A stretch of 64,000 nucleotides of DNA from NCBI GenBank assembly GCA_034231615.1, contig CM067302.1, positions 6,945,501-7,009,500 of the forward strand. The letters are read 5' to 3'. The notes beneath the pieces are model-generated. The model had not been told where the DNA came from. It did no database searches and saw only the letters and a list, made by a program, of their open reading frames with translations. Source of the DNA: Meghimatium bilineatum (lineage: Eukaryota > Mollusca > Gastropoda > Stylommatophora > Philomycidae). Every line of letters starts with the position of its first letter. Positions within the stretch are counted from its first letter, which is position 1. Made by a program: the position numbers and the translations under genes. This document shows positions 48,331 through 52,384 of the stretch, in pieces.

Positions 48331-51300
48331 TCTTCTTCTTCTTTCGTTCACTTGAAACATGTCTATATCTGTAATTCTGTCTCCTTAATAAAACTCACTG
48401 TCTTTTGTAGTTCATACAGTGTCCCATAGAGTTTTGATTCCAGTGTTGTTTCCTCTGGCCAATATGTCTGCCTCAGCGTTTCATGCTCAGAACACTCTTG
48501 AAGTATATGTTTGGCACTCTGTGCTGCCTGTCCACATGTACACATGGCCGTGTTGCCAATTTTGAACTTTGTATACATGTGACTGCGGAGTCGGTTGTGT
48601 CCTGTTCTGAGACGTAGAATTATAACTTGTTCTGATCTGTTCATATTGTGATAGTCATCTTGTGTTGGTGTTTGTGGCTTTCCTATTGACTTTATCATCT
48701 GTTTTTTCTGATGGTAGGTGATTGGTATATCTGGTTGGTCTTCGGCAGCACCTTCCTTAGCCAGTTGGTCTGCTTTTTCATTTCCTGGTATTCCACAGTG
48801 AGAGGGTATCCACTGCATGGTTACCCTATACTGGTAAGACAATTCGCTAAGTAGTTTTTTTAAGTCTGTTAGTTTTCCAGACTGGAGAGCTTGAAGCACT
48901 GACCTTGCATCTGTCAGGAATACCACAGGCTGTAGGTCAGAGTTGGAGTTCAGCAGTTTTTTAGCTGCCACACTAATTGCCTGGATTTCTGCATCATAAT
49001 TATTGCAGAATTTTCCTGTCGGTGTTCTGATTGTATCTCTAGGCTTGTGTGGATATTCTATATATACACTTGCACCTCCATTCATCACAGCATTCTGTGC
49101 TGACCCATCTGTGTACACTCTGACCCATATATCTTGTGGATATTCCTCATCCAGGAAACTGAGGGTGACTGTCATTCGCTGCACACTGTTCTGTTCGTCC
49201 TCGCTTAGTATTCCTTTCACATGGGTCTGAATGTATATTGGCATTCCATGGCTTTCACTCCACGGGGTTTGCTCTGGTACAGACCTTAAGGGGCTGCCAA
49301 CTTCAGGTAGGTCTGTAAGTTGTCTATGGAGTCGTTTAGCTTGATGGATAAAGCTGCTCCTTTTCAGTCGTCCCATTGCTAGATTTTGGAATCTTTCCTT
49401 CATTGGATGACTTGGCATACACTGAAACTTTTCTGCTTGAATTAGTACTTTTGTGTCTCTGCGTTCGCCAAGTGTTTGCATTCTTCCCATTTTCTGCATC
49501 TCTGCTATGGGTGTTGATTTCATTGCTCCCAACATTATTCTAAGTGCCTGGTTTTGCACTTTATCTAGATCTTGTAATGTGGTGTTTGATGCAGGACACC
49601 ACGCAGCTGAACCGTATTCCAGGTGTGGTCTTATGCCTTGCTGGTAAACTTTACTGAGTATATTTCCACTGGCTCCCCATGTGGTTCCACTTAGTTTTCT
49701 CAGGATAGCTAGCTTCCTCCTGGCTTTTGTTGTTGCTTTGTTTATGTGCTGCTTCCATGTCAGCTTATCATCAAAAGTAACTCCGAGGTATGTGGGTTGT
49801 TTGTCTTCTTTCAAGAGCTCTCCATCTATCTTGATATGACCAGCTTTTTGTTTTGGTGAGAGCGTAAAGAGTGTAGTGCTGCACTTATCTGTGTTAATGC
49901 TGACGCACCATCTATTAGCCCATAAGGTTAGGGCATCGATAGCTCTTTGTATTTGTTTAGTGGCCACTGTTGCATGTTCTTCCGTGCACCAGATCACCAG
50001 GTCGTCAGCATACATTGCCACTTTGATCCCGTGAGGTAGTTCAGCAACTAGGTCATTGATGTAAACCAAGAAAAGTGTGGGTGACAGGACTCCTCCCTGG
50101 GGGACTCCATGACGCAGTAGAACTTTCTTGCTCTTGCGACCATCTAATTGTACCCTGGCTCTTCTATTATGCAGGTATGCTTTTACCCATTTGTACATTC
50201 TTGAGCTAACCCTGCAATTTCGCAATTTCTTTAGGAGCCCTTCTTTCCAGACATTATCAAATGCTTTCCTGAGGTCTATCCATGCTGCTAGTACCAGTTT
50301 CTTTTCTTGGAAGGCATCCTCAATCTCTTGGGAGAGGTAGGTTGCCTGATCTTCAGTAGAGTAGCACTGTCTGAAACCTGCTTGCTGTGATACCAGAAGG
50401 TTTTCACTTTCAAGGTACCACTGCATCCTAAGATTGATAATGCGTTCCATTGTTTTACATAGACAGCTTGTGAGGCTGATGGGCCTGTAGTTGGAGACTG
50501 TGTTGCCATCTTTTCCTGATTTGAAGAGTGGTATCATTATTGCTTCTCTCCACGCCTGTGGTACATTACCTGTGGACCAGCTTGTGTTAAAGATCTGCAG
50601 TAGCTTTGCTCTTGCTGCATTTCCCAGGTTGCTAATCATTTCATTGGACACTCCATCAGCTCCAGGGGACTTTTTCATTTTCAATTTGGATATTGCATGC
50701 TCCAGTTCTCTCATTGTGATTGGTGCCTCCATGACTTCAGGTATAGGTTCACCTTGTCCAATGTTTTGCTGGTTCTCTCGAACCTCCTGTTGTTTGTCTG
50801 GGCTGACTTTGACGTTATTGTCTTCTGCAAAGGAATCTGCAAAGTATTCAGCTGCATGTTTACCTGTTAAAATGTTTCTATCTTTATAAAGTGTGATCTT
50901 GGTATTTCTCCCTGTACCTTCATCATTTAGTTGTTTTACAAGTTTCCATAATTTCCTAGTATCTTTTTCTAGGTTCAGCGACTCTGTTTTTTCTTTCCAG
51001 CTGCTCCGTCTGGCTTGTAACTTGGCTCTTTGAAATTTAGCCTTTGTTTGCTGATATTTGTTGTGATGTTCTTGGCTAGGTCTGTTCTCGGCCTGCTTTC
51101 TAGATGTTTCCATCTCATTTTGCAGCTTTTCCAGTTCATCATTCCAGTAGGGTTTGTAGTTTTTGCGTGCCCCCCTGGGTATGGTTTTACTAGCAGCATG
51201 TAGTATACATCTATTAAATTCACTCACTGCTCTATTGATGTCTTTGTCCAAGTTCATGTCTTTAGCTAGAACACTGGTTAAATGCTGGTACATTTTCCAG

Positions 51301-52384
51301 TCTGCCCTCTTATAGTTCCACCTAGTGAGCGTGCTGCTGTCCTTGGTATATTCATTGTGAATTTCCAGAAATACTGGTCTGTGGTCACTACCCCCAAGCT
51401 GCTTTCCAACGACACGTGTGATGTTCCATTCCAGGCCTGGTGAGTAGAATGCCAGGTCTGGTGTAGAGGTGGTGTGCCATGCTCTCGAGTAGAAGGTTGG
51501 TGAGTCTGCTGGCTGGTTAATAAGAATGAGATTATTTTCATCCTGCCAGCTCTCAAGTTCCTCACCTCTCTTGTCGATATGATCGTAGCCCCAGCTCTGG
51601 GAGTGGCTGTTGAAGTCACCACACACCATAAGCCTTTCTTTGTCTGGAATTGTGTCTAGTGCCAATGGTTTATCATTTGGGCAGTAGTAGTTCAGGAGAT
51701 GGAATTCTGCACTGTCTGTTTTTAGGTGGAGCATCTGGTATTCTGCCCCGTCCATGTATACTTCCAGCTGACATGCGCTGATATTGTTTTTAACTAGTGT
51801 CAGAATTCCACCCTTTCGCCTGTCTTTTCGGTCAGATCGGTAGCACTGGTAGCCTCTGATTTTGAAGGCTATGTCGCTGCTGAGGTGTGTTTCTTGGATA
51901 CAGCATATATTTACTTGTTCTTCACTGAGGACATTTTCAAGTTCCAATTTTTTGCTGTATCCATCTCTTTTACTGTTAACACCCTCAGCATTCCAGTGCA
52001 TTATTTTTATTGGTCGTTTGTTTGTTTGGCCAGTAGCTCTATTCCCTTGCCTCCTGGCTCCTCGGGGCAATTGAGAAGGACTTCCAGTAACTGAGGTTGG
52101 GCCCTTTCGAGGTATAGGGCCCGGCACCGTCCCTGCCTGAACGTCCGCCACAGGGCAGGCACCATAACGTTTATTAGATGCAGACATGTTTCCATTGTGT
52201 TTTATGCGTGGCAACCTGATTATCTGTGCGCCTTTTGGCTGGTTGCCTCCGTCTTCAGCACTCTGCTTACTTGGGCCGGACTATGGTCCTGCTCGAGTGG
52301 GAGTGCCCGACCAGTCTTAGTTTCCAGCCTCTGATGGCTGAACTAAGCCCCATCACCACTTCAAGGTTCTGGCCTCGATGGGGA
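48331..52384 (-). mobile_element. Apparently full-length single-ORF LINE (Ingi/I-group-like)
   Basis: About 4.05 kb on the minus strand: a 5' UTR of about 200 bases (52384-52188), one long ORF and a very short 3' UTR ending in (AAG)n (TTCTTCTTCTTC on the plus strand, 48331-48342). The 5' terminus is supported by two other copies that end at the same GGCCTCGATG/GGCTTCGATG sequence (16105-16112 and 10408-10418). No ORF1 lies upstream, which sets it apart from two-ORF jockey or I elements and fits Ingi-type organisation. It is flanked by TATC repeats on both sides. Confidence 0.9.
48363..52187 (-). CDS. LINE polyprotein: endonuclease, RT, RNase H, zinc knuckle
   Basis: The protein has 1274 residues from the first in-frame ATG (52187-52185); the frame is open a further nine codons to a TTG at 52214, which is not a likely start. 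Domains by residue from ATG: APE-type endonuclease about 60-278 (KIMHWNAEG, CIQETHL, MVCGDFNSHSQSWG, TSTPDLAFY, GGSDHRPVF); RT about 500-830 with FKSGKD...NYRPISLTSC, WIDLRKAFDNVW (catalytic D near 638), GVPQGGVLSPTLFLVYINDL and AMYADDLVIW (YADD 726-729); RNase H about 1022-1150 with VYTDGS (D1026), NYDAEIQAI (E1067), LTDARSVL (D1093) and SHCGIPGNEKADQLA (D1140). A C-terminal CTCGQAAQSAKHILQEC could bind zinc. The enzyme would nick target DNA and reverse transcribe its own RNA. No stop or frameshift, and every family catalytic motif present, so it may be competent. Confidence 0.93.
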   Translation of the reverse strand: MSASNKRYGACPVADVQAGTVPGPIPRKGPTSVTGSPSQLPRGARRQGNRATGQTNKRPIKIMHWNAEGVNSKRDGYSKKLELENVLSEEQVNICCIQETHLSSDIAFKIRGYQCYRSDRKDRRKGGILTLVKNNISACQLEVYMDGAEYQMLHLKTDSAEFHLLNYYCPNDKPLALDTIPDKERLMVCGDFNSHSQSWGYDHIDKRGEELESWQDENNLILINQPADSPTFYSRAWHTTSTPDLAFYSPGLEWNITRVVGKQLGGSDHRPVFLEIHNEYTKDSSTLTRWNYKRADWKMYQHLTSVLAKDMNLDKDINRAVSEFNRCILHAASKTIPRGARKNYKPYWNDELEKLQNEMETSRKQAENRPSQEHHNKYQQTKAKFQRAKLQARRSSWKEKTESLNLEKDTRKLWKLVKQLNDEGTGRNTKITLYKDRNILTGKHAAEYFADSFAEDNNVKVSPDKQQEVRENQQNIGQGEPIPEVMEAPITMRELEHAISKLKMKKSPGADGVSNEMISNLGNAARAKLLQIFNTSWSTGNVPQAWREAIMIPLFKSGKDGNTVSNYRPISLTSCLCKTMERIINLRMQWYLESENLLVSQQAGFRQCYSTEDQATYLSQEIEDAFQEKKLVLAAWIDLRKAFDNVWKEGLLKKLRNCRVSSRMYKWVKAYLHNRRARVQLDGRKSKKVLLRHGVPQGGVLSPTLFLVYINDLVAELPHGIKVAMYADDLVIWCTEEHATVATKQIQRAIDALTLWANRWCVSINTDKCSTTLFTLSPKQKAGHIKIDGELLKEDKQPTYLGVTFDDKLTWKQHINKATTKARRKLAILRKLSGTTWGASGNILSKVYQQGIRPHLEYGSAAWCPASNTTLQDLDKVQNQALRIMLGAMKSTPIAEMQKMGRMQTLGERRDTKVLIQAEKFQCMPSHPMKERFQNLAMGRLKRSSFIHQAKRLHRQLTDLPEVGSPLRSVPEQTPWSESHGMPIYIQTHVKGILSEDEQNSVQRMTVTLSFLDEEYPQDIWVRVYTDGSAQNAVMNGGASVYIEYPHKPRDTIRTPTGKFCNNYDAEIQAISVAAKKLLNSNSDLQPVVFLTDARSVLQALQSGKLTDLKKLLSELSYQYRVTMQWIPSHCGIPGNEKADQLAKEGAAEDQPDIPITYHQKKQMIKSIGKPQTPTQDDYHNMNRSEQVIILRLRTGHNRLRSHMYTKFKIGNTAMCTCGQAAQSAKHILQECSEHETLRQTYWPEETTLESKLYGTLYELQKTVSFIKETELQI

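Follow-up and report, generated by a model that had tools for sequence, protein, structure and literature searches.

A complete single-ORF, Ingi-like LINE with a predicted HDV-like ribozyme at its 5′ end in the mollusc Meghimatium bilineatum

The stretch of DNA analysed here, hereafter the window, consists of 64,000 nucleotides of the gastropod mollusc Meghimatium bilineatum (GenBank assembly GCA_034231615.1, contig CM067302.1, positions 6,945,501 to 7,009,500), and its minus strand carries a long interspersed nuclear element (LINE) with an uninterrupted open reading frame (ORF). Is this LINE complete and still able to move, to which clade does it belong, and how is the 5′ end of its RNA defined? 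The account that we consider quite probable is that of a full-length, recently inserted and probably mobilisation-competent LINE in a mollusc, Ingi-like and of the I superfamily, with an apurinic/apyrimidinic endonuclease (APE), a reverse transcriptase (RT) and a ribonuclease H (RNase H) encoded by a single ORF. The element exemplifies a known type, and the one noteworthy point is the predicted hepatitis delta virus (HDV)-like ribozyme at its start. This HDV-like layout and the setting in a TAGA array go beyond the preliminary description of the locus, which had been made from the letters of the window and their open reading frames.

Element anatomy, catalytic residues and clade

The element and its parts, all on the minus strand, are as follows:
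52383 (5′ end) to about 48331 (3′ end), minus: full-length single-ORF LINE, 4.05 kb, delimited by the ORF, by sharp TAGA-array junctions and by termini common to other copies
52188–52383, minus: 5′ untranslated region (5′ UTR), 196 nt, from the 5′ junction to the first ATG
48363–52187, minus: ORF of 1274 codons plus stop, with no internal stop counting from the first ATG
51381–52001, minus: APE-type endonuclease, residues 63–269 (Pfam EEP; PF14529 at 164–272)
49773–50507, minus: RT, residues 561–805 (Pfam RVT_1, E 7e-40)
48747–49124, minus: RNase H, residues 1022–1147 (Pfam RNase_H, E 2e-14)
48492–48542, minus: C-terminal CCHC motif, residues 1216–1232 (C1216-x-C1218-x8-H1227-x4-C1232)
48331–48362, minus: short 3′ UTR ending in GAACGAAAGAAGAAGAAGAAGA; the copies at 10154 and 36108 have the same GAACGAAAGAAGAA end

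Both termini are sharp: ...TAGAT runs directly into CCCCATCG at 52383, and ...GAACGAAAGAAGAAGAAGAAGA is directly followed by TAGATAGA near 48331. Within the ORF, a P/G/R-rich N-terminus (residues 1–58) is followed by the APE endonuclease, a linker, the RT, a thumb/connection region, the RNase H and the CCHC motif. That is to say, the frame, the Pfam matches and the junctions confirm the earlier claim of a complete LINE with both termini, an uninterrupted 1274-codon ORF, the catalytic motifs and a C-terminal CCHC motif.

The core catalytic residues of the endonuclease, RT and RNase H are present and near-invariant among 120 listed relatives, which were aligned with the window protein out of 372 found; all counts refer to the relatives that are ungapped at the position. 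In the endonuclease, N66 is kept in 103/103, E99 in 103/104, D191 and N193 in 117/118 each, and D244, S267, D268 and H269 in 119/119 each, the less conserved positions being Y167 (67/114), N171 (58/114) and H195 (86/118). The RT has D638, PQG at 696–698 and YADD at 726–729, with D638, D728 and D729 in 120/120. The RNase H residues D1027 and E1067 are kept in 120/120 each, D1093 and H1130 in 118/118 each and D1140 in 118/120, and each of the four CCHC residues is found in 115–116 of 116 relatives. A structure model spanning residues 480–1274, from the RT to the C-terminus, reached a mean predicted local distance difference test score (pLDDT) of 82.7 and a predicted template modelling score (pTM) of 0.76. 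The top PDB matches in a fold search with this model were LINE-1 ORF2p and R2, with the RT of human immunodeficiency virus 1 (HIV-1) and E. coli RNase HI lower; since the best template modelling scores (TM-scores) over the query are about 0.5, the likeness is at the domain level only. With an EEP endonuclease and an RT that hold their catalytic residues in one ORF, the element is an APE-type retrotransposon without long terminal repeats (non-LTR).

The N-terminal stretch (residues 1–58; 52187–52014, minus strand) is rich in P, G and R, for example AGxxPGPxPRxGPT..TGxPS..PRGAR. It is recognisable in relatives, with a median identity of 38% among the 61 of the 120 that cover it, and possibly serves RNA binding or reflects a constraint at the RNA level. 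A 2A peptide was sought in this N-terminus and is absent, the string found being 'VPGP' and not D-x-E-x-NPGP. Residue 1 is Met in 60 of the 61 relatives with a letter there; the differing start codon in 30 relatives is probably the choice of the gene caller and was rejected as meaningful.

As for the clade, the RNase H follows the RT, as in the I superfamily, and there is one ORF without an ORF1, as in the Ingi clade. In this copy, no ORF1-like frame is present in the 196 nt separating the 5′ end from the ATG. In relatives, the same is indicated by the space outside the ORF on the contigs of 63 listed relatives of 1250–1400 aa, which has a median of 543 nt and is below 900 nt in 53 and below 600 nt in 37; since contigs may end at repeat edges, these figures are support for a single ORF and not proof of it. 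The earlier observation that an ORF1 is lacking thus stands, this copy being without one and the contigs of 53/63 relatives leaving little room. An RT-domain tree of 121 rows (the window protein plus the 120 listed matches, by a quick method and without named reference elements) clusters the window protein with P0001 and P0002 (98% in the Shimodaira–Hasegawa-like approximate likelihood ratio test, SH-aLRT), and a nine-row group holds the window protein together with the Bradybaena protein P0010 (97% SH-aLRT). The top RT identity among the matches listed is 93%, to P0002. Five of the 120 listed matches carry organism names, three of Littorina saxatilis and two of Bradybaena similaris, both gastropods.

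Could the element instead belong to one of the two-ORF clades (Nimb, I, R1 or Jockey), its ORF1 having been lost in this copy? Such an origin would suit the 10/63 relatives' contigs with at least 900 nt outside the ORF and the fact that the clade rests on layout, the RT tree being without named references; moreover, Nimb accompanies Ingi in molluscs, the two being the named I-superfamily clades reported there, beside an unclassified one in an octopus (passages of PMC10294476). However, the little space on the other 53 contigs and a 5′ UTR that begins at a defined terminus, common to three copies, make this loss very improbable in our judgement, and membership of the Ingi clade is likely on the layout. 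The preliminary description had taken the single-ORF APE–RT–RNase H type to be uncommon in animals, which lacks support in that form, as Ingi is not rare in snails: the counts for T. fluviatilis, Batillaria and Elysia marginata, for example, are 249, 273 and 539 (passages of PMC11203168).

The predicted ribozyme at the 5′ end

The first 75 nt of the LINE look like an HDV-like self-cleaving ribozyme, whose predicted cut site lies exactly at the 5′ end. Its parts are the following:
52309–52383, minus: predicted HDV-like ribozyme, first 75 nt, strict motif match, predicted cut at 52384/52383
52383–52377 with 52354–52348, minus: P1, CCCCATC/GATGGGG, 7 bp
52374–52369 with 52314–52309, minus: P2, GGCCAG/CTGGTC, after a 2-nt joiner
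52367–52365 with 52357–52355, minus: P3, ACC/GGT, with the 7-nt loop L3, TTGAAGT, at 52364–52358
52340–52336 with 52329–52325, minus: P4, CAGCC/GGCTG
52320–52316, minus: core CTAAG, preceding the second P2 strand

First of all, the position of the motif argues for this prediction. A strict descriptor has one match over both strands of the 64-kb window, and it falls at 52383, the first base of the LINE. For a strict match within one base of the terminus and on the right strand, the chance is about 4 in 100,000 (arithmetic uncorrected for hindsight), and a motif starting at nt 1–3 appeared in 0/20,000 dinucleotide-shuffled versions of the first 110 nt. HDV-like ribozymes have a nested double pseudoknot P1/P2/P3/P1.1/P4 with a catalytic C in J4/2; of these parts, P1, P2, P3, P4 and CTAAG are present here and P1.1 is weak. 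Neither the CTAAG core nor the U and G of L3 (loop positions 1 and 6) vary among three copies; a conserved L3 G that pairs with an L3 U has been described (passages of PMC3774820). P1 and P4 recur in the plain minimum free energy (MFE) fold of this LINE, and the folding of the whole 196-nt 5′ UTR was equalled by 1/200 shuffles. A relaxed descriptor was dropped as useless, with 860 matches per shuffled window.

Several results weigh against the ribozyme. The strict descriptor is post hoc, having been written after the sequence was folded by eye, and a strict match somewhere in the window is unremarkable, because 100 block shuffles of the window average 1.62 such matches and 67/100 have at least one. 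Rfam gave no match to an HDV-like ribozyme in the whole window and the three 5′ regions, even at E 10, and returned six unrelated sub-threshold matches. By eye, P1.1 is weak, for it lacks two G-C pairs; in the MFE fold, CTAAG is base-paired to CTTAG, so that the catalytic C would be masked; and the first 90 nt fold barely better than shuffles (19/200 as good). P1 is missing from the MFE fold of the copy at 16116. In the three copies, 87% of the cells of the drawn pairs do pair, as against 24–48% when the drawing is slid, but the covariation score is equalled by 69/500 shuffles, and in the two old copies P1 and P3 pairs are lost, with a P2 pair lost in one or the other.

These same points (the Rfam negative, the weak P1.1, the paired core, the pair counts equalled by shuffles, and a post hoc descriptor that also matches shuffled windows) suit an alternative in which the LINE is the same but its 5′ region acts as an internal promoter or forms a translation or packaging structure, with the HDV-like layout there by chance. 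Yet the sole real match stands exactly at the first base of the LINE and on the right strand, local shuffles never reproduce it, and the invariant positions include precisely the CTAAG core and the L3 U and G. We regard the alternative as unlikely, and the self-cleaving ribozyme is preferred as a prediction.

Insertion site, age and related copies

The LINE is flanked by two arrays without strand:
47874–48330: (TAGA)n array on the 3′ side of the LINE, 457 bp (Tandem Repeats Finder, TRF; 114 copies, 98% matches)
52384–52692: (TAGA)n/(TAGAT)n array on the 5′ side of the LINE, 309 bp (TRF, array reading)

At both junctions the LINE is set in TAGA repeats, and the window has no further long (TAGA)n array; the one other TAGA run of at least 4 units is a 16-bp run at 31431. 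The family 3′ ends at 10154 and 36108 end in a GAA-rich tail with no TAGA after it; TAGA as the LINE's own tail was rejected on this ground, and the array is most simply the target. Because both flanks are TAGA repeats, no target-site duplication of the LINE was delimited. One may go further and suppose that the LINE is specific to (TAGA)n arrays rather than a general inserter, which would accord with both junctions lying in the window's only TAGA arrays above 16 bp and with the TAGA-free tails of the two other 3′ ends. However, this is a single insertion, and the related copies at 10154 and 36108 stand outside TAGA arrays, so such specificity is improbable. A 25-bp satellite lies near the 3′ side of the LINE at 46886–47669 (31 copies, 99% matches).

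How old is the insertion? Under a neutral model of frame decay, in which 4.4% of point changes give a stop (transition-weighted) and 0.1 frameshifting insertions or deletions (indels) per substitution are assumed, the probability of an intact frame with stops and indels falls from 0.33 at 0.2% neutral divergence to 0.06 at 0.5% and 0.004 at 1%; with stops alone, it is 0.44 at 0.5%, 0.19 at 1% and 0.04 at 2%. Since an intact frame is improbable under such decay, the copy is probably young and recently inserted, provided that there was no selection in place. Its present activity is plausible. Against this stand two results: no listed database cluster reaches at least 90% over the whole ORF (the best are 85% at full length and 89% over 89% of the ORF), recent copies thus not being seen, and the short copies in the window, 20–25% diverged, give no sign of being current.

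The LINE might also be intact through recent insertion but dead, that is, untranscribed, silenced in a microsatellite array and the last of a declining lineage. In agreement with such a fate, it sits inside about 770 bp of TAGA/TAGAT repeats, and the LINE-related pieces elsewhere in the window are all short (no more than 264 bp), the closest being 36041–36108, with 95.6% over 68 bp, and an adjoining piece with 100% over 30 bp. On the other hand, the frame is full and has its core catalytic residues, and P0002, with its 93% RT identity and from another data set, suggests that the lineage moved fairly recently. A dead copy is a serious possibility, though it falls short of an even chance, and we prefer a copy that is probably still competent.

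The related pieces in the window are the following:
10154–10417, minus: short copy with an internal deletion; its 5′ UTR, in which the ribozyme region has decayed, runs into the 3′ tail (blastn, nhmmer)
15957–16116, minus: old 5′-UTR copy, 120/151 aligned bases (79%) identical to the LINE 5′ region
35723–35809, plus: 3′-end fragment of a related copy (nhmmer E 1e-13)
35960–36110, plus: the LINE 3′ end in tandem 48-bp repeats; the last repeat carries the GAA-rich tail (TRF, blastn, nhmmer)

In the terms of PMC3414825 (passages of that source), the first of these counts as a short internally deleted element: its 5′ UTR, with 144/193 aligned bases (75%) identical to that of the LINE, is joined to the tail GAACGAAAGAAGAA. 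The copy has a weak candidate for a target-site duplication of 13–14 bp at its end at 10417 (83/2000 shuffles as good) and is flanked by two tandem arrays, 45-bp x2 and 50-bp x15 (10054–11251). Two ORF-less copies had been reported earlier, at 10140 and 15955, for which this LINE was proposed as the source of enzymes. Both exist, the second only as a 5′ region, with no detectable 3′ end. As a source, the LINE does not fit, because copies that are 20–25% diverged from its 5′ region are not recent products of this lineage and would have been moved long ago by an older relative; the link between them and the LINE holds in kind, not in time. At 35960–36110, some 2.6 tandem units of the terminal 48 bp of the LINE precede the tail, perhaps from RT slippage or template jumping.

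Taken together, the cycle of the LINE may be pictured as follows. The element would be transcribed, possibly within a host transcript, and the HDV-like ribozyme in the first 75 nt would cut the RNA exactly at the first base of the LINE. The single protein would then be translated, its APE endonuclease would nick DNA and its RT would prime on the nicked end (target-primed reverse transcription), perhaps helped, as one insertion suggests, by pairing of the ...AGA end of the GAA-rich tail with a TCT end in the (TAGA)n array; the RNase H would remove the RNA. In the past, related enzymes would have mobilised in trans the short copies made of the ribozyme region and the 3′ tail.

Other LINEs of the window had been called truncated or frameshifted in every case. 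This is upheld for ORFs of at least 150 aa with RT or RNase H, those at 38168–39818 and 41201–42916 being broken or partial; remnants without long ORFs were surveyed for relatives of this element. In the remnant at 38168–39818 (plus strand), RT and RNase H are split over two overlapping frames, and the protein is 26% identical to that of this LINE. The 571-aa ORF at 41201–42916 (plus strand) holds RT only; an 82% inverted repeat (40049–41170 / 41782–42926, about 1.15 kb) overlaps it with one of its arms.

Comparison with known systems

The earlier choice of Ingi as precedent proves right; the single-ORF APE–RT–RNase H layout, the predicted 5′ HDV-like layout and the short deleted copies all match the L1Tc/ingi group. 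First of all, APE, RT and RNase H are found in L1Tc/ingi as in this LINE. However, L1Tc carries an N-terminal 2A peptide motif, which is absent here, and this LINE has an animal (mollusc) host and a 3′ tail that is GAA-rich and not poly(A). According to passages of PMC4035085, the L1Tc protein also has nucleic-acid chaperone activity, and the 5′ hallmark of L1Tc/ingi elements in trypanosomatids, and of their short partners, contains HDV-like ribozymes, with cleavage at C1 where mapped; the short deleted partners NARTc, RIME and SIDER keep this hallmark (also passages of PMC12278014). A short non-autonomous partner with a common 5′ end is likewise found here, at 10154–10417. The orientation of the P1 G-C pairs in trypanosomatid ribozymes differs from that in R2 and HDV (passages of PMC4035085), and the predicted P1 of this LINE likewise opens with C1, its C's lying on the 5′ strand as at the L1Tc 5′ end. 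Compared by eye, the L1Tc 5′ primer CCCTGGCTCAGCCGG (in passages of PMC4748587) and the LINE start CCCCATCGAGGCCAG are identical at 8/15 positions, with P1, the 2-nt joiner and P2 in register. This resemblance may be taken as a lead to homology, not as proof.

R2 inserts in 28S ribosomal DNA (rDNA) by means of a restriction-like endonuclease and is not known to have an RNase H, whereas this LINE has an APE endonuclease and TAGA flanks. Vingi, also related to Ingi, is compact, has a single ORF and comes with non-autonomous families that carry internal deletions; it is not known to have an RNase H, whereas RNase H is intact in this LINE. It has been reported that an HDV-like ribozyme sets the 5′ end of R2 and that its short elements consist of the ribozyme and the 3′ end (passages of PMC3774820 and PMC3414825). 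HDV-like ribozymes are also described in several animal genomes including lancelet, and at retrotransposon 5′ ends (passages of PMC8256844). Among the listed titles and abstract openings, none names an HDV-like ribozyme for an Ingi element of a mollusc or of any other animal, which is weak evidence of absence with subscription journals mostly outside the search. Ingi elements, which are I-superfamily LINEs, are reported as abundant in several gastropods (passages of PMC11203168), but classification there is by RT (passages of PMC11203168 and PMC10294476), and the word ribozyme has 0 occurrences in the main texts of these two papers. Because the table of PMC11203168 is without an Ingi entry for Littorina saxatilis, from which several relatives of this LINE come, the gastropod Ingi and the group of this LINE need not be one and the same.

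A tentative and somewhat doubtful extension would be that the ribozyme is ancestral to the Ingi clade, coinherited with the single ORF in snail and trypanosomatid, both of which yield ribozyme-plus-tail short elements; a bolder addition would make TAGA microsatellites the landing sites of the snail lineage. An intact single-protein animal LINE lends itself as a candidate for testing retrotransposition. Should the ribozyme be real, it would link animal and trypanosome Ingi not only through their protein but also through a feature of the RNA, and it would bear on the age of ribozyme-based 5′ processing in LINEs.

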